64,000 nt of DNA from Rhizobium sp. TH135 (lineage in GTDB: Bacteria; Pseudomonadota; Alphaproteobacteria; Rhizobiales; Rhizobiaceae), in contig NZ_PKRP01000001.1 in the NCBI RefSeq assembly GCF_002855515.1, positions 558,001-622,000 on the forward strand, written 5' to 3'. A model generated the notes under the pieces. That model did no database searches and was not told the DNA's origin. It saw nothing but the letters and a program-made list of their open reading frames with translations. The position numbers and the translations under genes are program-made. Shown piece after piece: positions 1-52,502 of the stretch. Within the stretch, counting starts at the first letter, position 1, and every line of letters starts with the position of its first letter.

Positions 1-1934
1 ACGGCACGCGCGGCAGAAAGCTCCTCGATCAGGCTGCTTTCCGTCACTTCAAGGTGCAGACGTTTGGCCGAAAGTCCGGTCTCATTGAGGATCTCTGCGA
101 CCGTTGCCGCAAGGTCCCCGTGACGGAGGTCGTGAACGGAGAGATTGACGGAGACGCCGATCGGCTCCGGCCAGGCCCGGCAATCGGCACAGGCCTTGCG
201 CAAGACCTGATGCGTGATGTCAGTAACGATCCCCATCTCTTCGGCAATCTGGATGAAGATATTGGGCGCAATCGGCCCCTTCTCCGGATGATGCCACCGC
301 GCAAGCGCCTCGCAACAGGCGAGCACCCGGCCATCGGGTGTGAACATGGGCTGATAGACGACGGTGATGCCGTGATCGTCCACAGTTGCCCTGAGGTCTG
401 CCTTCAGCCGCTGGCGCTCCAGATAGCGGGCATCCATTTCCTTGGCAAAGAGCGTGAACTGTCCACGGCTGCGCGCCTTCGATTCAAACAGCGCAATGTC
501 AAGCTTGACGGGCCACTCGTCCATCTTGACGTCTGCGCTCTCAAGCAGCACCGCGCCGGCGGAGAAACTGACGGTGATGACGGCACCGTCAACCTCGAAG
601 TTGCTGCAGGCGGCCGCGTGCAGGCTGCGCATCTCCTCATCCAGATCCTCCCGCCCCTCGACATTGGGGAAGAAGCAGATGAAGTGATCCCCGACCTGGC
701 GGCCGACGACGGCCTTGCCGACCGCAAGCTCGGTCAGCCGGGCAGCGATCGCGACAAGCAGTTTGTCGCCGGTCAGGTGACCCTTGAGGTCGTTGACATG
801 CTTGAAGTCGGTCACATCGAGGATCATCAGACCGACCACGGGCCCGAACTCCCCCGGACGCTCCAGGCGCTCGCGCACCAGCTCGGTAAAATAGCCGCGC
901 TGCGGAAGCCCCGTCAGACTGTCGTACCGCGCCATGTGAAGGATCTTGCGGTCGGCGCGCACACGTGCGGTCACATCTTCGAAGATCAGAACCACGCCGC
1001 CTTCATCCCGCCGCTTGGCGGAGAATTCCAGCACCAGATCCTCGGAGAAATGCATGACGGCGCGATTGGAAAGACCCTGCGTCAGCTGCGAGAGTTGCTT
1101 CTGCAAGAGACTGGGCATCGATCCGTCGATGAAGGTGTGGCGCACGCCATAGCGCAGCACCACGTCCAGATCGCAGCCCGTCAGGCGCCGTCTGTCGCCG
1201 AGGCTCAAGAGTTCGCAGGCCTTGCGATTGACCACCTCGATCCGGTTGTTCGGATCGAGCATCAGGAGACCATGGGTCATGTTGCTGAGCGCGGTATCGA
1301 AGCGGTCGGCAATCTTGGCCATCTCGCGCGAGGCGATGACGTTTTCGTAGAGGAAGTCGCGCACACCATTGGCCATCGCGCGGGTCGTCAGCCAGAATGG
1401 GATCAGCATCAGCGACAGCAGCGACTTGAAGATGTCCTGCGCCAGAAGGCTGCCGATCACCATGGGCGCGCAACAGGCGAGTGTCTGCAAATCCACCGCC
1501 AGACGCGAGCCATAGTTACGGCCGACGATCGAAACCATCGTGGCCATGGCGACCGAAATGCAGGCGAGTTCGGCAAACGTGTCCTGGAAGGCCAGCATCG
1601 CATAGCCGCTGCCAATGCCCAGAATGGCCGTGGTCAATGCGCCGCCGAGAACATAACGCCGTTCCCAGGCTGCAATCTGCTCGCGCGTGAGCTTCGCCTT
1701 GTCCTCGCGATCGAACAGGAAGAAGGAGTGAAGCCGGAACGAGAAGACCAGCACGAAGCAGGCGCAGAGCAGAAGGTAGAAGGAGGCACCCGTCTGCACA
1801 TAGACGGTGACGAAGGTCAGGATGTGGACAACCATGCCGGTGAACAGCGTGAAGCGGTTGTCAAAGAGAGAGCTCACGAACGACAGATATACATCCGTGG
1901 GCACATTGTGGTCATGCCCCTTGTCGGCCCTCAT
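1..1934 (-). CDS. GGDEF-EAL c-di-GMP turnover protein with degenerate GGDEF (3' end missing)
   Basis: The gene starts with ATG at 1934 and runs off the left edge without a stop, leaving about 644 residues. The first 200 or so residues contain several hydrophobic segments (for example TGMVVHILTFVTVYVQ, YLLLCACFVLVFSF), so it is membrane anchored. A PAS-like segment follows (LDPNNRIEVVNRKACELL), then a GGDEF domain opening with HMARYDSLTGLPQRGYF. Its signature is changed: the A-site reads R-Q-V-G-D-H-F instead of RxGGDEF, so cyclase activity is unlikely. The EAL domain carries the motif CEALARW. From family knowledge such proteins are usually phosphodiesterases whose GGDEF domain is a regulatory GTP-binding module. 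The end of the EAL domain lies outside the window, so its catalytic residues cannot all be checked. Confidence 0.9.
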   Translation of the reverse strand, partial: MRADKGHDHNVPTDVYLSFVSSLFDNRFTLFTGMVVHILTFVTVYVQTGASFYLLLCACFVLVFSFRLHSFFLFDREDKAKLTREQIAAWERRYVLGGALTTAILGIGSGYAMLAFQDTFAELACISVAMATMVSIVGRNYGSRLAVDLQTLACCAPMVIGSLLAQDIFKSLLSLMLIPFWLTTRAMANGVRDFLYENVIASREMAKIADRFDTALSNMTHGLLMLDPNNRIEVVNRKACELLSLGDRRRLTGCDLDVVLRYGVRHTFIDGSMPSLLQKQLSQLTQGLSNRAVMHFSEDLVLEFSAKRRDEGGVVLIFEDVTARVRADRKILHMARYDSLTGLPQRGYFTELVRERLERPGEFGPVVGLMILDVTDFKHVNDLKGHLTGDKLLVAIAARLTELAVGKAVVGRQVGDHFICFFPNVEGREDLDEEMRSLHAAACSNFEVDGAVITVSFSAGAVLLESADVKMDEWPVKLDIALFESKARSRGQFTLFAKEMDARYLERQRLKADLRATVDDHGITVVYQPMFTPDGRVLACCEALARWHHPEKGPIAPNIFIQIAEEMGIVTDITHQVLRKACADCRAWPEPIGVSVNLSVHDLRHGDLAATVAEILNETGLSAKRLHLEVTESSLIEELSAARA

Positions 1935-41216: not shown

Positions 41217-42170
41217 TCAGAACGGCGAATCCGGGAAGTAGTAGTTCTTCGCGTTGTCAGGTGTGATCAGCGTCGCGTCGAGCGTGTAGGTGCCATGCAC
41301 CGGAACGCTGTCGTAGAGGGCAGCAGCCGTCATCTCCATCGCCGTGCCAACCATCGACGGCGGATAGAGAACGTTGACCGGAACCATCTTGTCGCCGTCC
41401 ATGACCTTCTTGATCATGTCCTTCGAACCGGCACCACCGATGATGTACTGGATATCGGTACGGCCCGCCTGTTCGATCGCCTGCAGCACGCCGACAGCCA
41501 TGTCGTCGTCCTGGCACCAGACCACATCGATCTTCGGATACTTGGTCAGGTAGTCCTGCATGACCTTGAAGGCGTCGTCGCGGTTCCAGTTGCCGAACTG
41601 GCGATCAAGGATCTTCACGTTCGAGCCGGCGATGCCCTTGTCGAAACCATCCTGGCGCTGCTGATCGATCGGGATCGGCATGCCGCGGATGACGACAACT
41701 TCAGCGTCCGGGGTCGTCGCGGCGATGTACTTGCCAGCGACTTCACCGAGAGCCGGGTTGTTACCGGCCACATAGAGGTCACGGACGGTGTTGTCGTTGA
41801 CCGACGGTGCGCGGTCGACGAGAGCGACGAACTTGCCGCTGTCCTTGATCTGGCGGATGGCGTTGACAAGCGGATCCGGATCCGTCGGCAGGATCACGAG
41901 TGCATCGATGCCTTGCGTGGCAAGATCCTGCACGGCATTCGCCTGGCTGGACGGATCAGCGGAGGTCTTGACGACCACGTTGAGGCCCGGATGACGCTCC
42001 ATGAGCTGCTTGGCAATACGCTCGGCGTGATAGATGACGCCCGATGTCCAGCCATGCGTCGCAGCCGGGATCGAAACGCCGATCGTCTTGGCGTCCTGGG
42101 CCTGCGCTGCGCCGAAGATCGACACCAGCGCGGTCATGGCGACAGCCATACCCATAAGTTTCTTGTGCAT
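41217..42170 (-). CDS. Sugar ABC transporter substrate-binding protein (RbsB-like)
   Basis: The 317-residue protein has a signal peptide (GMAVAMTALVSIFGAAQA) and the PBP type I fold: IGVSIPAATHGWTSGVIYHAERI, TQGIDALVILPTDPDPLVNAI and DVVWCQDDDMAVGVLQAIEQAG, as in ribose/xylose/inositol binders. The sugar is not decidable. It is the last gene of the transporter operon, with a strong GGGAGG ribosome site, consistent with its need for high expression. It ends at a terminator at 41170-41192. Confidence 0.92.
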   Translation of the reverse strand: MHKKLMGMAVAMTALVSIFGAAQAQDAKTIGVSIPAATHGWTSGVIYHAERIAKQLMERHPGLNVVVKTSADPSSQANAVQDLATQGIDALVILPTDPDPLVNAIRQIKDSGKFVALVDRAPSVNDNTVRDLYVAGNNPALGEVAGKYIAATTPDAEVVVIRGMPIPIDQQRQDGFDKGIAGSNVKILDRQFGNWNRDDAFKVMQDYLTKYPKIDVVWCQDDDMAVGVLQAIEQAGRTDIQYIIGGAGSKDMIKKVMDGDKMVPVNVLYPPSMVGTAMEMTAAALYDSVPVHGTYTLDATLITPDNAKNYYFPDSPF

Positions 42171-42239
42171 TGGTTTCCTCCCAAAGTGACGAGGGTCGAG
42201 TGTGAACGAACCGGGCGACCCTCCTGCCCGGTCGTTTCT

Positions 42240-43250
42240 TCACGCCTTGCGCGCCAGCGACCGCTGGACGAGCATCGCGATGATGATGATCGTGCCCTGG
42301 ATGGCGCCGATCAGATATTCGGAGATGAAATTCGATAGCAGCATGATGTTGCCGACCAGCTCGAGGATGAAGGCACCGCAGATGGTACCCCAAACGCGAC
42401 CCGCCCCACCCTTGAGGGCCGTGCCACCCACGACGACGGCCGTAATCGCCTGCAGCTCCCAAAGGATGCCTGTCGTGGCAGACGTCGAGCCGAGACGCGG
42501 CACATAGAGCAGCACGGCAATCGCCACACAGAGCCCCTGGATGACGAATGCAATGGTGCGCACCCGGTCAACGGCAATGCCGGAATAGCGCGCGACATCG
42601 CGGTTCGAGCCGACGGCGACGACATGGCGGCCATAGCGGGTGCGGTAAAGCACGAAGGCGGCAATCGCGGTCACCACCAGAATGATGACGATCGGCACCG
42701 GCACCCCGAGGATCGAACCAAAATAGACCGGGCGATAGAGGGCCTGCTGTTCGGCATCGCGCAACGTGATCGCACCGCCCTGGGAGAGCCAGGTGGTGAG
42801 GCCACGATATATGCCCATCGTGCCGAGTGTGGCAATGAACGGTTCGATCTTGCCGACAGTGGTGATCAGACCATTGGCCAGACCGCAGAGCGAACCGATG
42901 ATGACGGCGAGCGCCATGGCGGCCGCAATCATCAGGCCGGGATCGGCAATCGCGCCGGAATTCATAAACAGGATCATCAGGCTGGCGACAAAGGCCACCA
43001 TCGAACCGACCGAGAGATCGAGATCCCCCGAGGAAATGACGAAGGTCGCACCGACGGCTATGATCGCGATGAAGGCAGAGCGTGTCGCGACATTCGCAAG
43101 ATTGGTGAGGCCGATGAAGTTCGGGTTCACCAGGGCGCCAACGATCAGCAGGATCAGAAGCGCGGCAAAGGGCGCCACGGCGCGCATATCCACATCGCGC
43201 CACGTTCGGCCGGCACGGCCAGGTGTGGTCGTTTCAGTCTCGGCAGTCAT
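42240..43250 (-). CDS. Sugar ABC transporter permease (RbsC-like)
   Basis: The 336-residue permease has about ten hydrophobic segments and the RbsC signature FVISSGDLDLSVGSMVAFVASL with GLANGLITTVGKIEPFIATLGTMGIYRGL. The N-terminal 40 residues are hydrophilic. ATG 43250 follows GGGAGGAG; the frame start at 43340 would add a non-conserved stretch. It is encoded between the ATPase and binding-protein genes of the same operon. Confidence 0.92.
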   Translation of the reverse strand: MTAETETTTPGRAGRTWRDVDMRAVAPFAALLILLIVGALVNPNFIGLTNLANVATRSAFIAIIAVGATFVISSGDLDLSVGSMVAFVASLMILFMNSGAIADPGLMIAAAMALAVIIGSLCGLANGLITTVGKIEPFIATLGTMGIYRGLTTWLSQGGAITLRDAEQQALYRPVYFGSILGVPVPIVIILVVTAIAAFVLYRTRYGRHVVAVGSNRDVARYSGIAVDRVRTIAFVIQGLCVAIAVLLYVPRLGSTSATTGILWELQAITAVVVGGTALKGGAGRVWGTICGAFILELVGNIMLLSNFISEYLIGAIQGTIIIIAMLVQRSLARKA

Positions 43251-43344
43251 GTTGTCCCGTCTCCTCCCGCGCACCTCGACTGGAGGTCGCGCACCCTGAA
43301 GTCTTCGTTCAAGCCCGGTCTTGTCGCCGGGCTGCGCCAATCGC

Positions 43345-44871
43345 TCAGCTCGCCATCTGCCGTTTCAGGCCGGCGGCGTAACGCATGATCGTCTGCTCGT
43401 TGATGTCATCGCCCTCGAGCATGCCTACCATGCGGCCTTCGCGCATGACGGCGACCCTTGTGCAAAGCCCGATCACCTCGGGCATTTCCGAGGAGATGAC
43501 GATGATCGAGCGGCCCTCGCGGGCGAGCGCTGCGATAAAATGATAGATCTGCTGCTTGGTGCCGACATCGATGCCGCGCGTCGGCTCATCGATGATGATG
43601 ATCTGGGGCTCGACTTCCATGATCTTGGCGAGCAGCAGCTTCTGCTGGTTGCCACCCGACATGCGACCGACCCGCACCTTCTCGTCGCGCACACGAATGT
43701 CGAAACGGCGCTTGGCGCGCGCCATGGCCTTCGCCTCGCTGGCGGGGTCGAGGTAACCATGGCGGACGTGATTGTCCATCGACTGCAAGGTCAGGTTTGC
43801 GGTCATGCCCTCGCCGAGCAGCAGCCCCTTGCCCTTGCGATCCTTTGTCATGTAGGCGAGCCCGCGCCGGTTCGCCTCGCGGAAGTCGCCGGCATCGAGA
43901 ACACTGCCCTTGAGCCGCACCTCGCCCGAAAGCCGGGGCCTTAAACCCGCCACCGCCTCCATCAGCTCGGTCCGCCCTGAGCCGATCAGGCCGGAAAAGC
44001 CGAGCACTTCGCCGCGTTTCAGCTCGAAACTGGCATTTTTGACGAAGCCCGTCGTCAGTTCCCTGACCGACAGCACGATCTCTTCGTCAACATTGGGTTC
44101 ATGCTTGGCAGGATAGAGGCTCGACAATTCACGGCCGACCATCAGCTGCGCGATCGCCTCGCCATCGAGCGCCGAGGTCGGCGCCGTCTTCACCCATTGG
44201 CCATCCCGCAGCACCGTGACCCGGTCGGTGAGCTCCATCACCTCATCAAGCTTGTGGCTGACGAAGACGAAACTCGTGCCCCGCGCGCGCAGCTTGCGCA
44301 CCTGATCGAACAGCACTTCCGTTTCGTCCCGGGACAAGACAGCCGTCGGCTCGTCCATAAAGACGATCCGCGCCTTGCGGCTGATTGCCTTGGCGATCTC
44401 GACCATCTGCTTGTCGGCGACAGCCAGCGAGCTGATCAGCGCATTCTCGTCGATCCTCGACCCCAACTGGTCGAGCACGCGCCGCGCTTCGGCCCGCATC
44501 ACCTTGCGGTCGAGAACGCCGAAGCGCGTCACCTCGCGGCCGAGAAACAGGCTCTCGGTGACCGTCAGATGATCGGCAAGATTGAATTCTTGGTGGATGA
44601 GCACGATGCCAAGCGCCTCGGCCGAGCCATTCGCCGGCAGGATCACCGGCTCGCCGTCGAGCAGGATGCGTCCCGCCGTCGCCTGCTCGAAGCCTGAGAG
44701 TATCTTCACGAGCGTCGATTTGCCCGCGCCGTTCTCGCCCATGAGCGCATGAACCTCGCCCGGCAACACGTCAAAATCGACGCTGAACAGCACCTGCACG
44801 TCGCCAAATGATTTGGCGATACGCTCCGCCACGAGCACGGGTTTCCGTGCTTCGCCCCCAGCCAATGTCAT
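43345..44871 (-). CDS. Sugar ABC transporter ATPase with two cassettes (RbsA-like)
   Basis: The 508-residue protein has two cassettes. The first holds GENGAGKSTLVKIL, SLAVADKQMVEIAKAI and FMDEPTAVLS; the second holds GLIGSGRTELMEAV, RMSGGNQQKLLLAKI and IIDEPTRGIDVG. As in RbsA, the second Walker A is modified (GSGRT). It powers the RbsC-like permease. ATG 44871 follows GGAGG. Its upstream region holds two perfect 14-bp LacI-type operators at 44911 and 44932. Confidence 0.93.
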   Translation of the reverse strand: MTLAGGEARKPVLVAERIAKSFGDVQVLFSVDFDVLPGEVHALMGENGAGKSTLVKILSGFEQATAGRILLDGEPVILPANGSAEALGIVLIHQEFNLADHLTVTESLFLGREVTRFGVLDRKVMRAEARRVLDQLGSRIDENALISSLAVADKQMVEIAKAISRKARIVFMDEPTAVLSRDETEVLFDQVRKLRARGTSFVFVSHKLDEVMELTDRVTVLRDGQWVKTAPTSALDGEAIAQLMVGRELSSLYPAKHEPNVDEEIVLSVRELTTGFVKNASFELKRGEVLGFSGLIGSGRTELMEAVAGLRPRLSGEVRLKGSVLDAGDFREANRRGLAYMTKDRKGKGLLLGEGMTANLTLQSMDNHVRHGYLDPASEAKAMARAKRRFDIRVRDEKVRVGRMSGGNQQKLLLAKIMEVEPQIIIIDEPTRGIDVGTKQQIYHFIAALAREGRSIIVISSEMPEVIGLCTRVAVMREGRMVGMLEGDDINEQTIMRYAAGLKRQMAS

Positions 44872-44910
44872 GCAATCCTCCCGGCGGCTCCTCAACCGCT
44901 ATGCCATTTG

Positions 44911-44945: not shown

Positions 44946-45047
44946 TCAATCGCTCATGGGGACAATTTGAGCCCTGCCGGCTTTCGCAGCCGGAACAGGA
45001 ACGGTAAGGTCTCCAACGATTCCATGCGGATAGGGGGATGGAGCCGC

Positions 45048-46067
45048 GTGCCGAATTCAGCACCAGCAACGATCGAGGATGTGGCGCGCATCGCGGAAGT
45101 GTCGATCGCGACTGTGAGCCGCGCGATCCACACGCCCGATAAGGTGGCGAAATCCACCCGGCAGCGGGTGAACCAGGCCATCGCCATCACCGGCTACACG
45201 ACCAATGCCATGGCGCGCTCGTTGCGCATGGGCAGGTCGAACATGATCCTGATCCTTGCTCCCGACATCGGCGATCCCAACTTCTCATCGACCCTGATCG
45301 GCCTCGAAAACGAAGCGCGTGCCCATGGCTATGGCGTGCTCATAGGCCATACCCAAAACGATCCGGAGCGCGGCCTCGAATACTTGAAATTCTTGAGCTC
45401 CGGCCAGGCAACAGGCCTGGTGTTGTTCACCGGCCACGAGCCCTTCGGCCATCAGGTGCTCGGCCAGCGCCTGCCGCCGTCGGTGGCCGTCTTCGAACCG
45501 GTCTTCGGCTCGAAGATTTCCTATGTCGGCGTCGATGATGTGGCAGGCGCCCGGAAGGCCGCCGAACACCTGCTCTCGGCTGGCCACCGCTCCATCGCCT
45601 TCATCGGCGACAGCAAGACGCGGCTCGGCCACCAGCGCCGCCGCCAGGGCTTCGACATCGCACTGGACGCCGCCCGCATTCCGCCCAATCAACGCTTCGT
45701 GCTGGAAGGCGAAGGCACCATCGAAAGCGGGCGCCTCGCCGTCGAGCAGCTTTTCATGCGCGACCAACTGCCCTCGGCCTTCATGTGCGTCAACGATGCC
45801 ACGGCCGTCGGCGTGCTGAACGGCCTCACCGCCCGCGGCTACGACCTGCCACACGACTTCTCCGTCATCGGCTTCGACGACGTGCCCCAGGCGACCTATG
45901 TAAACCCCGCACTCACCACCATCCGCCAGCCCCGCACGGCGATTGGCCGCCAGGCCATGTCACTGCTGATCAAGTCGCTGGGTGACCGCACGATGGAGCG
46001 CCAGGAAATCCTGCTGATGCCGGATCTGATTGTGCGGGGGTCTGTGACGGGGCCTGCGCGGCGATAG
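45048..46067 (+). CDS. LacI-family regulator of the adjacent sugar ABC operon (GTG start)
   Basis: The 339-residue protein has the LacI helix-turn-helix (TIEDVARIAEVSIATVSRAIHTPDKVAKSTRQRV), hinge region GYTTNAMARSLRMGRS and effector domain (ILILAPDIGDPNFSSTLIGLE, GHRSIAFIGDSKTRLGHQRR, SVIGFDDVPQATYVNPALTTIRQP). It is divergent from the ABC operon and the two operators in between are its likely sites. GTG 45048 follows GGGGGATGGAG; an ATG at 45024 has a weaker ribosome site. The sugar effector is unknown. Confidence 0.92.
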   Translation: MPNSAPATIEDVARIAEVSIATVSRAIHTPDKVAKSTRQRVNQAIAITGYTTNAMARSLRMGRSNMILILAPDIGDPNFSSTLIGLENEARAHGYGVLIGHTQNDPERGLEYLKFLSSGQATGLVLFTGHEPFGHQVLGQRLPPSVAVFEPVFGSKISYVGVDDVAGARKAAEHLLSAGHRSIAFIGDSKTRLGHQRRRQGFDIALDAARIPPNQRFVLEGEGTIESGRLAVEQLFMRDQLPSAFMCVNDATAVGVLNGLTARGYDLPHDFSVIGFDDVPQATYVNPALTTIRQPRTAIGRQAMSLLIKSLGDRTMERQEILLMPDLIVRGSVTGPARR

Positions 46068-46082
46068 GGCGATACAGCAGCG

Positions 46083-46895
46083 CTATTGGATCTGCACGTG
46101 GATGTGGTCGTCGTGACGCGCCGCGCGGCATCCCTGGAAGCGGACCGCCGGAGCCGCAACGCCCAGCGCATCCGTGAGATGCGGCTCAAGGAAGACTTTC
46201 TCGATCCCATACTCGGCAGCACCTGTCTCCGCGAGCCAGGAAACGGCCGCCCGCATTCGCTCGGGCTCAATCCTGTAGACAGGAAAAAACGGCTGTAGCC
46301 ATGCGAGATCCCAGCGCATCGTCAGCCAGTCATCACGCCCGGCACAAGGCTGCTTGTCCGTTGAATTCGGTTGCTCGAAGGCAAAATAGCCGATCGGCGA
46401 CCGCGTGACGCCATTGAGGAAACGATCCTCGCCATCACGATAGTAGAACGCAAGATCCAGCTTCCGGCCATCGGCATGGGAAAGATGCGGCAGCAGCGGA
46501 AACCCGTCGACGAACGGAAAGTTGGCATCCAGGGCGACAGTGACCGTGCCAGGGAAACGCGCGTCTATGTGGTCTGCCAGCCCCTCGGCCATCCGCAACA
46601 GGCCGGGCGTGACATAGTTCCGGTTGAGGGCACAGTAGAGGGGCGATCGCACAACGAGATGATCCGCTGGCTTGGCAAGGCAGGAGAGCGCTACGCGGCC
46701 GAAATGCGGTGCGATGAACGTCGCGGCGGAGGTCACGCCTATGTAGAAGGCAAAGAAAAGGCTGAGCCTTGCAAGCATGCTACCAAGGCGCAAAACCCTG
46801 GCAACACCGAGTGTCGCAATGTAGGCGAGCCCTCCGAGCTGTGTCAGCGCTGTAAGCAGAATGAATAGAATAATCCGGGTCGCGATTTTCGCCAT
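46083..46895 (-). CDS. Membrane-anchored protein with LAS-type (MepA-like) metallopeptidase motifs
   Basis: The 270-residue protein has two N-terminal hydrophobic segments (ILFILLTALTQLGGLAYIATLG and LSLFFAFYIGVTSAATFIA). The remainder shows the LAS metallopeptidase zinc motif: His140-x6-Asp147 in SHADGRKLD, and His264-x-His266 in RHDDHIHVQI at the extreme C-terminus, as in MepA-like murein endopeptidases. These motif spacings fit Zn-binding and catalysis; the region between is unlike MepA, so this is a distant relation. A role in peptidoglycan trimming is inferred. No conserved neighbours were recognised. The gene runs tail to tail with the LacI gene at 15 bases. Confidence 0.6.
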   Translation of the reverse strand: MAKIATRIILFILLTALTQLGGLAYIATLGVARVLRLGSMLARLSLFFAFYIGVTSAATFIAPHFGRVALSCLAKPADHLVVRSPLYCALNRNYVTPGLLRMAEGLADHIDARFPGTVTVALDANFPFVDGFPLLPHLSHADGRKLDLAFYYRDGEDRFLNGVTRSPIGYFAFEQPNSTDKQPCAGRDDWLTMRWDLAWLQPFFPVYRIEPERMRAAVSWLAETGAAEYGIEKVFLEPHLTDALGVAAPAVRFQGCRAARHDDHIHVQIQ

Positions 46896-47052
46896 GGAAA
46901 CACTTAGGTGCTGAAACTGTTAGGAGACTGAGGGAACGCCCGACTGAATGCAACTGCAGCTGTAACTGCACCTCTTCCGGCGCCAGCACTTCTTGGCATA
47001 CCCGCCAGCTGCCCCTATGTTGCCAGCCCACGATTTATGATCGGAATACCCC

Positions 47053-47535
47053 ATGAGTGTCGCCTTTACCAAAGAAGAGAGTTCGGAAACAGCAGCGGAA
47101 CTCCATCTGCCGGATCGTCCGATCTCGCAGCACCCAAACCTGGTGACGGCGCAAGGGCTCGCACGGCTTGAGGCCGAGGCGGAAGAGGCCCGCGTCGCCT
47201 ATCTCGCGGCGCAGTCGGTCGAGGATGTGAACGAGCGTCGTCGCCAGTCGGCGGTCCCCTATCGTGACCTCAAATACCTGACGGAGCGCCTGCGCACCGC
47301 GCAGGTGATCCCAGAGCCCGAAACCAATGCCGTCGTCGCTTTCGGCAGCAAGGTCACCTTCGAGCGGGACGACGGCCGCGTCCAGACCTACCGCATCGTC
47401 GGCGAGGATGAAGCCGATCCGAAGACCGGCTCGATTTCATTCGTTTCGCCTGTTGCAGCCCGCCTAATGGGCAAGGCAGTCGGCGATGTGGTGACGGTCG
47501 GCGACCAGGAGCTGGAGATTACGGCCATAGCTTGA
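47053..47535 (+). CDS. GreA/GreB-family transcript cleavage-like factor
   Basis: The 160-residue protein has an N-terminal coiled coil of about 85 residues (LARLEAEAEEARVAYLAAQ ... RDLKYLTERLRTAQV) and a C-terminal FKBP-like domain (AVVAFGSKVTFERDDGRVQTYRIVGEDEADPKTGSISFVSPVAARLMGKAVGDVV). The C-terminal block matches GreA well. The coiled-coil tip, SVEDVNERRRQ, is not the classical GDLSENAEY loop, so the invariant catalytic Asp and Glu are not at their usual places. It may be a GreA-like paralog (regulatory, Rnk-like) rather than the housekeeping GreA. ATG 47053 is used. Confidence 0.85.
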   Translation: MSVAFTKEESSETAAELHLPDRPISQHPNLVTAQGLARLEAEAEEARVAYLAAQSVEDVNERRRQSAVPYRDLKYLTERLRTAQVIPEPETNAVVAFGSKVTFERDDGRVQTYRIVGEDEADPKTGSISFVSPVAARLMGKAVGDVVTVGDQELEITAIA

Positions 47536-49554: not shown

Positions 49555-50865
49555 TCAAACGTAACGGTTGACCACGTTCTCCAGCAGTTCCTGCTTGCCG
49601 GAAACCGGCTGCGGGTTGACGTTCTTGGCTTCAACGCGGGCAGCGATGGCGTCGAGGCTTTCTTCGCCGCGCAGCATCTTCTGGTTCTCGGCCTTGTCCC
49701 AGCCGGCGTAACGGCTATTGAGCGGAGCCGACAGCGCCTTGTCCTCGACCATCTTGGCAGCAGCCTTCAGGCCGCGGGCGCAGCAATCCATGCCGCCGAT
49801 ATGGCCGATCAGCAGGTCTTCGGCGTCGAGCGACTGTCGGCGCAGCTTGGCGTCGAAGTTGGTGCCACCGGTGGTGAATCCGCCGGCCTGCAGGACCTGG
49901 TAATAGGCCAGCGCCATTTCCGGAACATTGTTCGGGAACTGGTCGGTATCCCAGCCCGACTGGTAGTCGTTGCGGTTCATGTCGATCGAACCGAAGATGC
50001 CGAGCGCATTGGCAAGCGCCAGCTCGTGCTCGAAGGAGTGGCCGGCGAGGATCGCATGGCCCTGCTCGATGTTCACCTTCACTTCGTTCTCGAGACCGTA
50101 ACGCTTCAGGAAGCCGTAGACGGTGGCAACGTCGTAGTCATACTGATGCTTCGACGGCTCCTGCGGCTTAGGCTCGATCAGGATTGCGCCCTTGAAGCCG
50201 ATCTTGTGCTTGTATTCGACGACGAGGTTGAGGAAGCGGCCCATCTGGTCAAGTTCGCGGGAAAGATCGGTGTTGAGCAGCGTCTCATAGCCTTCACGGC
50301 CACCCCACAGCACGTAGTTCTCGCCGCCGAGACGCTGGGTCGCGTCGAGGCAGGTCTTCACGGTTGCGGCAGCAAAGGCGAAGACATCAGGATCCGGATT
50401 GGTGGCTGCACCCGACATGTAGCGGCGATGCGAGAACATGTTCGCCGTACCCCAGAGCAGCTTGACGCCGGTCTCTTCCTGCTTCTTGGCGAAGTAGTCG
50501 ACGATCTCGTTCAGGTTCTTGGTGTTCTCGGCAAAGCTGTTGCCCTCAGGGCGAACGTCGGCGTCGTGGAAGCAGTAATAGGGTGTGCCGAGCAACTGGA
50601 AGAATTCGAAGGCGACATCGGCCTTCAGCTTCGCAGCATCCATCGTGTCCTTGAACCACGGACGCTCAAACGTGTTGCCGCCGAACGGGTCGGTGCCCGG
50701 CCAGACGAAGGTGTGCCAATAGGCAATCGCAAAGCGCAGATGGTCTTCCATGCGCTTGCCGAGGACGACTTCGTCCGGATTGTAATGGCGGAAGGCCAGC
50801 GGATTGGTGCTGCCTTCGCCTTCATATTTGATCTTCTGGATATTGCCGAAGAAACCTGTGCTCAT
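49555..50865 (-). CDS. xylA: Xylose isomerase
   Basis: The 436-residue enzyme interconverts D-xylose and D-xylulose. It has the class II length with N-terminal insert ([29 protein letters not shown]) and conserved [36 protein letters not shown] and [10 protein letters not shown], with the metal and substrate residues in place. ATG 50865 follows AAGGAG. It is downstream of xylB on the same strand, separated by an intergenic repeat of about 120 bases. Confidence 0.97.
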
Positions 50866-50917
50866 GGGTAGTACTCCTTGGTGTGTGTTCGTTGAATTGT
50901 GATGGCACTGGGTGGGG

Positions 50918-51042
50918 TTCCCCCTCACCCTGCCCTCTCCCCGCTGGGGAGAGGAGAATGTCGGCGCGTGCCGCTTGTCTCTTCTCCCAGCCGGGAGAAG
51001 GTGCCGGCAGGTCAGGCGCAACGTATTGCGCCGGGGATGAGG
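50918..51042. repeat. RIME-type palindromic intergenic repeat, copy 2
   Basis: CTCTCCCCGCTGGGGAGAG and CTTCTCCCAGCCGGGAGAAG hairpins with flanking CCCTCA/ATGAGGG sequence, between xylA and xylB. It would be transcribed within the xyl unit as an RNA hairpin. Confidence 0.75.
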
Positions 51043-51047
51043 GAGCA

Positions 51048-52502
51048 TCAGCTGCCGAGGGAACGGATCGCCGGATACAGCGCCCTGTAACGCCGGTAAG
51101 CAGCCTCATAGGCAGAGGTCAGATCCTTGACCGGCTCCACCGTCTCCGCCGTTTGAGGCGCCGTGCAGACCGACAGCGGATCCGCCCCGCTTGCCGCAAT
51201 CAGCCCGAGGCGGGCCGCCCCGAAGGCAGCCCCGAAGTCGCCGTCGGCGGGAATGTCGACCGGCATATCGAGCGCCGTCGCAATCGAGGACAGCCAGTAG
51301 CGCGAGCGAGAACCGCCGCCGATCGCCGTGACGCGGCTGATCGAGGTGCCAGCAGACTTCAGCGCCTCAAGGCTATCGCGGATCGCGAAGGTGACGCCTT
51401 CCAGAACCGCCTGCGTCAACACCGCGCGGTCGCTCTCATGGCCAAGCCCGATGAAAGCACCGCGGATCTTCGCATCGTTGTGCGGTGTGCGCTCGCCCGA
51501 GAGATAGGGAAGGAACGTCACTCCTGTGGGAGCCTTCAGGGCATCGCCGAGTTCGCCGGTCAGCTCGCCCGCCGATTTACCGGTCACGCTCGAATGCCAG
51601 TTCAGCGCATCGGTGGCCGATAGGATGACACCCATCTGGTGCCAGGTATTGGGCAGCGCATGGCAAAACGCATGCACGGCGCTTTCCGGCTTCGGCAGAT
51701 AGGAAGCATTGGCGGCAAACAGCACGCCCGAAGTTCCGAGCGAGACGAAGGCCTGACCTTCGGCAACCGTACCCATGCCGCAGGCCGAGGCCGCATTGTC
51801 CCCTGCCCCGCCGGCAATCACGACATTGGACCCGAGGCCCCACTTCTCGGCCAGTTCGGCACGCAGCGTACCGGCGCGATCGGTCCCCTCGACGAGACCG
51901 GGCATCTGCTCGATCGTCAGCCCCGTGGCGTCGAGCAGTTCCGTCGACCAGGCCCGCTTGCCCGTATCGAGCCAGCTGGTGCCGGCCGAGTCGGACATGT
52001 CAGAGAGATATTCCCCCGTCAGCCAGAAGCGCAGGTAATCCTTGGGCAGCAACACCTTGGCGACCTTGGCAAAGGTCTCGGGCTCGTTGTTTTTCACCCA
52101 GGCGAGCTTCGGTGCGGTGAAGCCGGGAAAGACGATGTTGCCGGTGAGCGCCCGGAAGCGCGGGTCGGCATCGAGGGCTGCCGCTTCCGCATGGCTGCGC
52201 GTATCATTCCAGAGGATGCAAGGCCGCAGCACCCGACCCTTGGCATCGACAAGCGTCGCGCCATGCATGTGGCCGGAAAGGCCGATGCCCCGCACGGCTG
52301 CCAGCTCCTTGGGATGCGCTGCTTTGAGCGCCGCAATCGCCTCTTCCGTCGCATGCAGCCAGTCGCCCGGCGCCTGTTCCGACCAGCCGGGATGCGGTCG
52401 CTGCACGGTGAGACCAGCATGGCCAACGCCAATCACCTGCTGGGCGTCGTTGATCAGCATCGCCTTGATGCCGGACGTGCCGAGATCCAATCCGAGATAC
52501 AT
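51048..52502 (-). CDS. xylB: Xylulokinase
   Basis: The 484-residue FGGY kinase phosphorylates D-xylulose. Motifs are [13 protein letters not shown] at the start, [34 protein letters not shown] and the GGGSRSRYW phosphate loop. The length is normal. ATG 52502 follows GGAGG. It lies 23 bases downstream of the LacI gene, so the order lacI-xylB-xylA may form one transcription unit controlled from the region upstream of 53551. Confidence 0.96.

Follow-up and report, generated by a model that had tools for sequence, protein, structure and literature searches.

The window analysed here, a stretch of 64,000 nucleotides, carries an ATG-initiated ORF of 270 amino acids on its minus strand (46083–46895). 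Its product very probably has the fold and the residues of an LAS metallopeptidase, judging from profile comparisons and predicted structures. The best explanation of the evidence as a whole, with a probability of roughly 0.6, is a membrane-tied periplasmic zinc peptidase of MepA fold that would cut peptidoglycan near the membrane. Place of action and exact bond are the weakest parts of this explanation. The bound zinc, the enzymatic activity, the membrane orientation, the substrate and where the enzyme acts are what we infer, and the proposed mechanism runs as follows. (i) An N-terminal two-helix hairpin would tie an LAS-fold zinc metallopeptidase of the MepA (M74) type to the inner membrane. 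(ii) The catalytic domain would face the periplasm. (iii) His140, Asp147 and His266 would bind zinc, as in MepA. (iv) His264, with His261 nearby, would support catalysis, again as in MepA. (v) The bond cut would most likely be an amide in peptidoglycan stem peptides or cross-bridges (D-Ala–mDAP type). (vi) The substrate would be membrane-near peptide material (nascent strands), and the enzyme would not roam the sacculus, unlike soluble MepA.

The ORF, its conservation, the predicted fold, the residue correspondence and the two hydrophobic segments come directly from computation. The features, in window positions, are these:

46083–46895, minus strand: whole ORF, putative membrane-anchored MepA-like protein, 270 aa (ORF, relatives, conservation, codon substitution).
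46794–46892, minus strand: first membrane segment, residues 2–34 (model helices 2–18 and 21–34, hydropathy, conserved LTxxTQxGG).
46701–46778, minus strand: second membrane segment, residues 40–65 (model helix 40–65, hydropathy window 44–62, conserved F47 and Y51).
46086–46700, minus strand: predicted MepA-like LAS domain, residues 66–270 (hhalign, soluble-domain model, Foldseek, VIA).
46485–46520, minus strand: hydrophobic conserved loop FPFVDGFPLLPH, residues 126–137, directly before the zinc motif (conservation).
46455–46478, minus strand: His140-x6-Asp147, predicted zinc ligands corresponding to MepA His113 and Asp120 (83 of 83 rows; aligned with MepA HASHQxGxDxD).
46179–46187, minus strand: Glu237-Pro238-His239 in KIFIEPHLK, counterpart of MepA IFVNPAIK (conservation, hhalign).
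46098–46115, minus strand: His261-x2-His264-x-His266, corresponding to MepA His206, His209 and His211 (83 of 83 rows; alignment).

Codon substitution was compared between the window gene and its close kin L002–L005. The dN/dS ratios, computed from NG86 values, are about 0.10 (L005), 0.17 (L002), 0.20 (L004) and 0.24 (L003), and this range of 0.10–0.24 indicates purifying selection and therefore a real gene. Genome contigs were scanned with a pattern as seed; 127 relatives were confirmed, of which the best 80 loci were kept. Two alignments describe the family. The first has 83 rows, the window protein and 82 others with identical proteins merged; a broken copy (L069) and L001, which is the window itself, are left out, and L045 is trimmed to its last 290 residues. 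The second, A1, has 63 rows, the window protein and 62 of the 80 loci, the other 18 being near-copies, broken, cut, endowed with awkward starts, or set aside for brevity. His137, His140, Asp142, Asp147, Gly255, Cys256, Arg260, His261, Asp262, Asp263, His264 and His266 are present in all 83 rows. Also invariant, there and in A1, are Arg67, Arg92, Leu122, Asp123, Phe126, Pro136, Ser139, Gly169 and Tyr170.

The original prediction had singled out His140, Asp147, His264 and His266, and these numbers are correct in the translated ORF. It had also placed the C-terminal HxH in a DDHIHV context; the protein indeed ends in RHDDHIHVQIQ, and a third histidine, His261, completes an HxxHxH with His264 and His266. 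PMC4087270 gives H-x(3–6)-D and H-x-H as the LAS motifs and assigns the catalytic role to the first histidine of the latter. The corresponding His140-x6-Asp147 and His264-x-His266 occur together in 83 of 83 rows. Glu237 and Pro238 are found in 82 of the 83 rows and His239 in 72. By analogy, His266 is predicted to be a zinc ligand and His264 the catalytic residue; this presumes the roles that we assign to MepA His113, Asp120, His206, His209 and His211, and an offset of +19 in MepA numbering.

Low overall similarity to known proteins had been anticipated. Taken alone, the window protein finds no counterpart in Pfam, NCBIfam, PHROGs or PDB sequences at a threshold of E≤10; this includes Pfam PF03411 (Peptidase_M74), whose curated cut-off of 25 bits it does not exceed, and the NCBIfam MepA model NF006947. 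An annotation as 'hypothetical' had been expected as well, and all three plasmid-borne homologues are labelled 'hypothetical protein'. The family as a whole behaves differently from the single protein. A comparison of A1 with nine alphaproteobacterial MepA sequences by hhalign gives a probability of 90.5, an E value of 1.3e-6 (for one comparison) and a score of 52.2, against at most a probability of 0.74 and a score of 20.25 in the controls (20 column shuffles and one reversal). The alignment pairs His140 and Asp147 with the MepA motif SHQxGxDxD, and His261, His264 and His266 with HxxHxH. PF03411 is matched at E≤1 by 42 of 63 members (best 2.4e-7) and NF006947 by 43 (best 9.3e-8). Among the matches listed, these MepA models are the sole Pfam or NCBIfam entries common to more than three members.

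Individual scores are low. Ten relatives were tabulated against PF03411: nine reach 13.0–22.5 bits, all below the 25-bit cut-off, and one is unmatched. Only 2 of the 63 members match at E≤1.6e-5, the estimated neighbourhood of that cut-off. When the family profile is run against PDB sequences, MepA comes fifth (E 0.92), after four unrelated sequences. For single proteins, the link to MepA through sequence alone is weak. The profile of the family is nevertheless homologous to MepA (hhalign; 42 of 63 match PF03411 at E≤1). The window protein, which falls short of the curated cut-offs, is not filed as an M74 member. Taking profile and predicted structure together, the protein is probably built like an M74 member and probably works like one.

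Structure prediction was carried out with AlphaFold2. The full-length model has a pLDDT of 94.0. VIA ranks 1u10 first for this model (Z 13.1, 172 residues aligned, rmsd 3.3), followed by Hedgehog (Z 8.3). Both 1u10 and 1tzp are taken here to be E. coli MepA. Foldseek, run with the same model, returns Hedgehog domains in 35 of 49 matches (best E 0.046), with BaLdcB also among them, and no MepA chain at E≤10. Because Foldseek had missed MepA where VIA ranked it first, a separate model of the soluble domain was made (pLDDT 91.6). With it, the first four Foldseek matches are all MepA (E 6.7e-6 to 2.5e-5), and the next lies at E 0.074. VIA aligns 157 of the 205 residues with 1tzp (Z 13.3, rmsd 2.9), and most of the predicted domain follows the MepA fold. 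Hedgehog is second (Z 8.1), and structures of LdcB type and VanXYc also align (Z 7.0, 6.4 and 5.7), so that the comparison with the predicted model is led by MepA, Hedgehog, LdcB and VanXYc. The comparison with MepA and VanX suggested in the original prediction thus puts MepA first, and the VanX kind is represented by VanXYc alone among the matches listed. These results support an LAS metallopeptidase fold closer to MepA than to VanX-type enzymes.

VIA pairs Gln270, the last residue of the model, with MepA residue 215, and a gap-free alignment of the final residues would place His266 on His211. Clustering of His140, Asp147 and His266 would follow from this end-to-end alignment with MepA. The LAS metallopeptidase reading put forward earlier is borne out by the profile, by confident predicted structures and by a fold comparison topped by MepA; the peptidoglycan role and the inner-membrane attachment also proposed there remain predictions. 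A chance motif was considered and is ruled out by the 83/83 invariance together with the profile and fold results. The Hedgehog matches raise another alternative, a non-catalytic or signalling protein that has retained its zinc site as Hedgehog domains have. Hedgehog N-domains are indeed the next fold matches, but MepA outranks them in VIA and in the soluble-domain Foldseek search, although not in the full-length one. The counterparts of MepA His206 and His209, as well as the three ligand positions, are kept in 83 of 83 rows, and among the Pfam and NCBIfam matches listed the MepA models alone are common to more than three members. This alternative is highly improbable.

The two N-terminal membrane segments of the original prediction are seen both in hydropathy and in the model helices. 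Kyte–Doolittle windows of 19 residues exceed 1.6 within residues 2–29 and at 44–62, and the model has helices at 2–18, 21–34 and 40–65, with a break at 19–20 inside the first segment. The LTxxTQxGG motif occupies residues 14–22 of this segment; L14, T15, Q19, G21 and G22 are each conserved in at least 90% of the 63 rows. In our judgement, conservation of the first helix exceeds the needs of a plain anchor. Mean net charge over the 63 rows is +3.4 for the inter-helix loop, +1.6 for the N-tail and +1.3 after helix 2, the loop being more positive than the N-tail in 52 rows and equal to it in nine. Since the inter-helix loop is the most positive segment, it should lie inside with both ends outside, an orientation that is not certain because a slight positive charge is found beyond helix 2 as well. 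Cys256 is present in 63 of 63 rows and Cys184 in 61; Cys72 occurs in 27, always with Cys88 alongside. Charge bias and conserved cysteines fit, and suggest, a periplasmic, disulphide-bearing catalytic domain.

With no linker, the domain follows helix 2 immediately, from residue 66 on, and would therefore be confined near the membrane. An arrangement of this kind favours a membrane-near substrate and lends something to the idea that the same zinc peptidase is a carboxypeptidase, trimming pentapeptides on lipid II or on nascent strands, and not an endopeptidase that opens cross-links. LdcB-type structures and VanXYc, which belong to the same superfamily, also align (Z 7.0, 6.4 and 5.7), and this speaks for it too. 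It is nonetheless unlikely, as the endopeptidase MepA is nearest in sequence and fold by a wide margin (Z 13.3) and the C-terminal HxxHxH has the MepA form.

In the hydrophobic loop before the zinc motif, F126, P133, P136 and H137 are invariant, and P127, F128 and L134 are conserved in at least 90% of the 63 rows. Model confidence is 95 for residues 121–130 and 76 for 131–140 in the full-length model, and 69 for 126–135 and 76 for 136–145 in the soluble-domain model. As these residue blocks are out of register between the two models, there is only a hint that the FPFxxGFPLLP loop leans on the helix hairpin. A more speculative, and rather doubtful, extension is that the hairpin (LTxxTQxGG, F47, Y51) and this loop form one unit that would hold the active site on the membrane surface, facing lipid II-linked or freshly polymerised peptides. 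If true, the enzyme would be a cell-wall peptidase whose target is the precursor at the membrane and not the completed sacculus.

The gene converges with ORF 44967–46067, 15 bases away, which we take to encode a LacI-type regulator, and diverges from ORF 47053–47535, presumably a GreA/B-type factor. The surroundings (41217–44895 and 49555–51048) presumably encode a sugar ABC transporter set with a LacI-type regulator, and xylose isomerase. For the wider neighbourhood, clusters were built from the ORFs of the 80 loci; these ORFs were called crudely, with no main ORF at four loci (L009, L025, L031 and L069). An operon or neighbourhood clue was rejected, as the widest non-family cluster, which touches 16 of 80 loci, varies in distance and strand and appears to be tied together by loose links. 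In seven Bacteroidia loci (L042, L051, L056, L068, L074, L078 and L081) an ORF of AHSA1 type recurs directly upstream, on the evidence of three scanned, all AHSA1. At L056 and L068 this upstream ORF ends on the base where the MepA-like ORF begins. Another upstream ORF recurs in six loci on the alphaproteobacterial side; two were scanned and both are ThiF, preceded at L022 by a dUTPase ORF. Among those seen, recurrent upstream genes are lineage-bound. Of the five clusters listed, both phyla appear only in the loose one and in one of five loci, whose scanned member (L034) is a histidine kinase. When 45 chosen co-directional upstream ORFs were compared with Pfam at E≤1e-4, 63 families were matched. 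Among the matches listed (25 of the 63 families), AHSA1 is commonest (5 of 45 ORFs), and Peptidase_M23 occurs once. No cell-wall gene context was found in the 80 clustered loci or the 45 scanned ORFs.

This lack of a cell-wall neighbourhood, together with a sparse distribution, leaves some room for a substrate other than peptidoglycan (a membrane protein, a lipopeptide or another amide) or for a domain that faces the cytoplasm. The hydrophobic conserved loop before the zinc motif, unlike the QPRGGPM of MepA, points the same way, and the charge test of orientation is not sharp. Known bacterial LAS relatives, however, have peptidoglycan peptides as their substrates. Several are named as acting on such peptides in PMC4087270. 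Cys184 and Cys256 are moreover conserved, as expected outside the cytoplasm. Both variants are decidedly improbable, and a periplasmic peptidoglycan peptidase is preferred.

Phage cargo was also considered and rejected, since a search of 50,697 phage records gave nothing at E≤0.01 and no PHROG was matched (E≤10). One locus on a predicted viral contig, L139, matches locus L059 of Rhizobium sp. CF122 at 100% identity along 10,253 bases and is therefore no evidence for a phage gene. Its provirus border is perhaps too wide, since the adjoining ORFs look bacterial by eye.

The best 80 of the 127 loci come from Rhizobiaceae, other Alphaproteobacteria and many Bacteroidota. Among the 80 are two records titled Gammaproteobacteria or Thiotrichaceae and one betaproteobacterial bin (L040), which the tree places within Bacteroidota, perhaps because the contig was mis-binned. 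This quick tree (75 rows, without L002–L005) has the Alphaproteobacteria on one side of a branch, with the two Gammaproteobacteria beside them. Three plasmid records carry family members. Pseudooceanicola spongiae HQ09 has two copies with identical proteins at two sites of one chromosome record (L016 and L017). Within the genus, 6 of 60 genomes carry the gene (the window's included); elsewhere in the order it occurs in 3 of 40, and in a phylum sample in 11 of 398. Most sampled sister species lack it. By these sequence comparisons, this is a real, sparse family, in no Pfam or NCBIfam entry as such and mainly of Alphaproteobacteria and Bacteroidota.

The site of the gene was surveyed in 30 loci around the GreA/B-like gene, from 30 of the 60 genomes. 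Between the GreA/B-like and LacI-type genes, five loci have this gene, and 14 have adjacent flanks with an empty slot (about 120–137 bases between match ends). One (L117) has a different ORF of 233 amino acids, and in ten the 1.5 kb examined contains no LacI-type match. The variable slot spans 46067–47053 of the window and is seen at L102–L106, L109, L111, L112, L114, L115 and L117–L121. Empty slots with adjacent flanks imply that the gene was gained or lost singly at this site; on this comparison of sequences it is an optional one-gene cargo. A classical MepA is encoded elsewhere in the genome (L090, G000:C9:234624-235364; PF03411, 328.5 bits), and the anchored protein is therefore an addition and not a replacement. 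This resident MepA, the absence of the gene from most sampled sister species and the lack of a cell-wall neighbourhood count against the preferred explanation.

What is new here is probably a membrane-anchored variant of the MepA kind, an uncatalogued branch, as far as profile and model indicate. A literature search returned no title or abstract start on a membrane-anchored M74-type protein. The analysis supplies a likely function class for a family absent as such from Pfam and NCBIfam. With a MepA-type domain fixed at the inner membrane, cleavage where the wall is synthesised would be set apart from cleavage within the sacculus. Should the protein turn out to be a common, redundant endopeptidase, only an annotation is gained.

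Several known systems share its core. Hedgehog N-terminal domains have the LAS core in common with it (Z about 8); these are animal signalling proteins, and no sequence match to them was found in PDB-sequence searches with protein or profile. LdcB/VanY-like proteins and VanXYc (M15) likewise share the LAS core (Z 5.7 to 7.0), and no M15 family is among the matches listed for the 63 members (25 of 28 Pfam families). According to PMC4087270, LdcB is without the H-x-H that is present in the window protein. MepA (PF03411; 1u10, 1tzp) is alike in fold, in motif order, in HxSHxxGxxxD, in the IFxxPxxK stretch and in HxxHxH, at an identity of 14–17% in structure alignments. E. coli MepA is considered to be free in the periplasm. 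In PMC6403190, MepA is described as zinc-dependent and as cleaving D-Ala–mDAP. The window protein has a two-helix membrane hairpin, whereas the MepA sequences compared mostly start with a stretch read as a signal peptide. Its domain follows helix 2 without a linker, unlike MepA, and the hydrophobic FPFxxGFPLLP loop stands where MepA has QPRGGPM. Finally, the window protein stops right after HIHVQIQ, whereas the compared MepA sequences continue into a cysteine-bearing C-terminal part.
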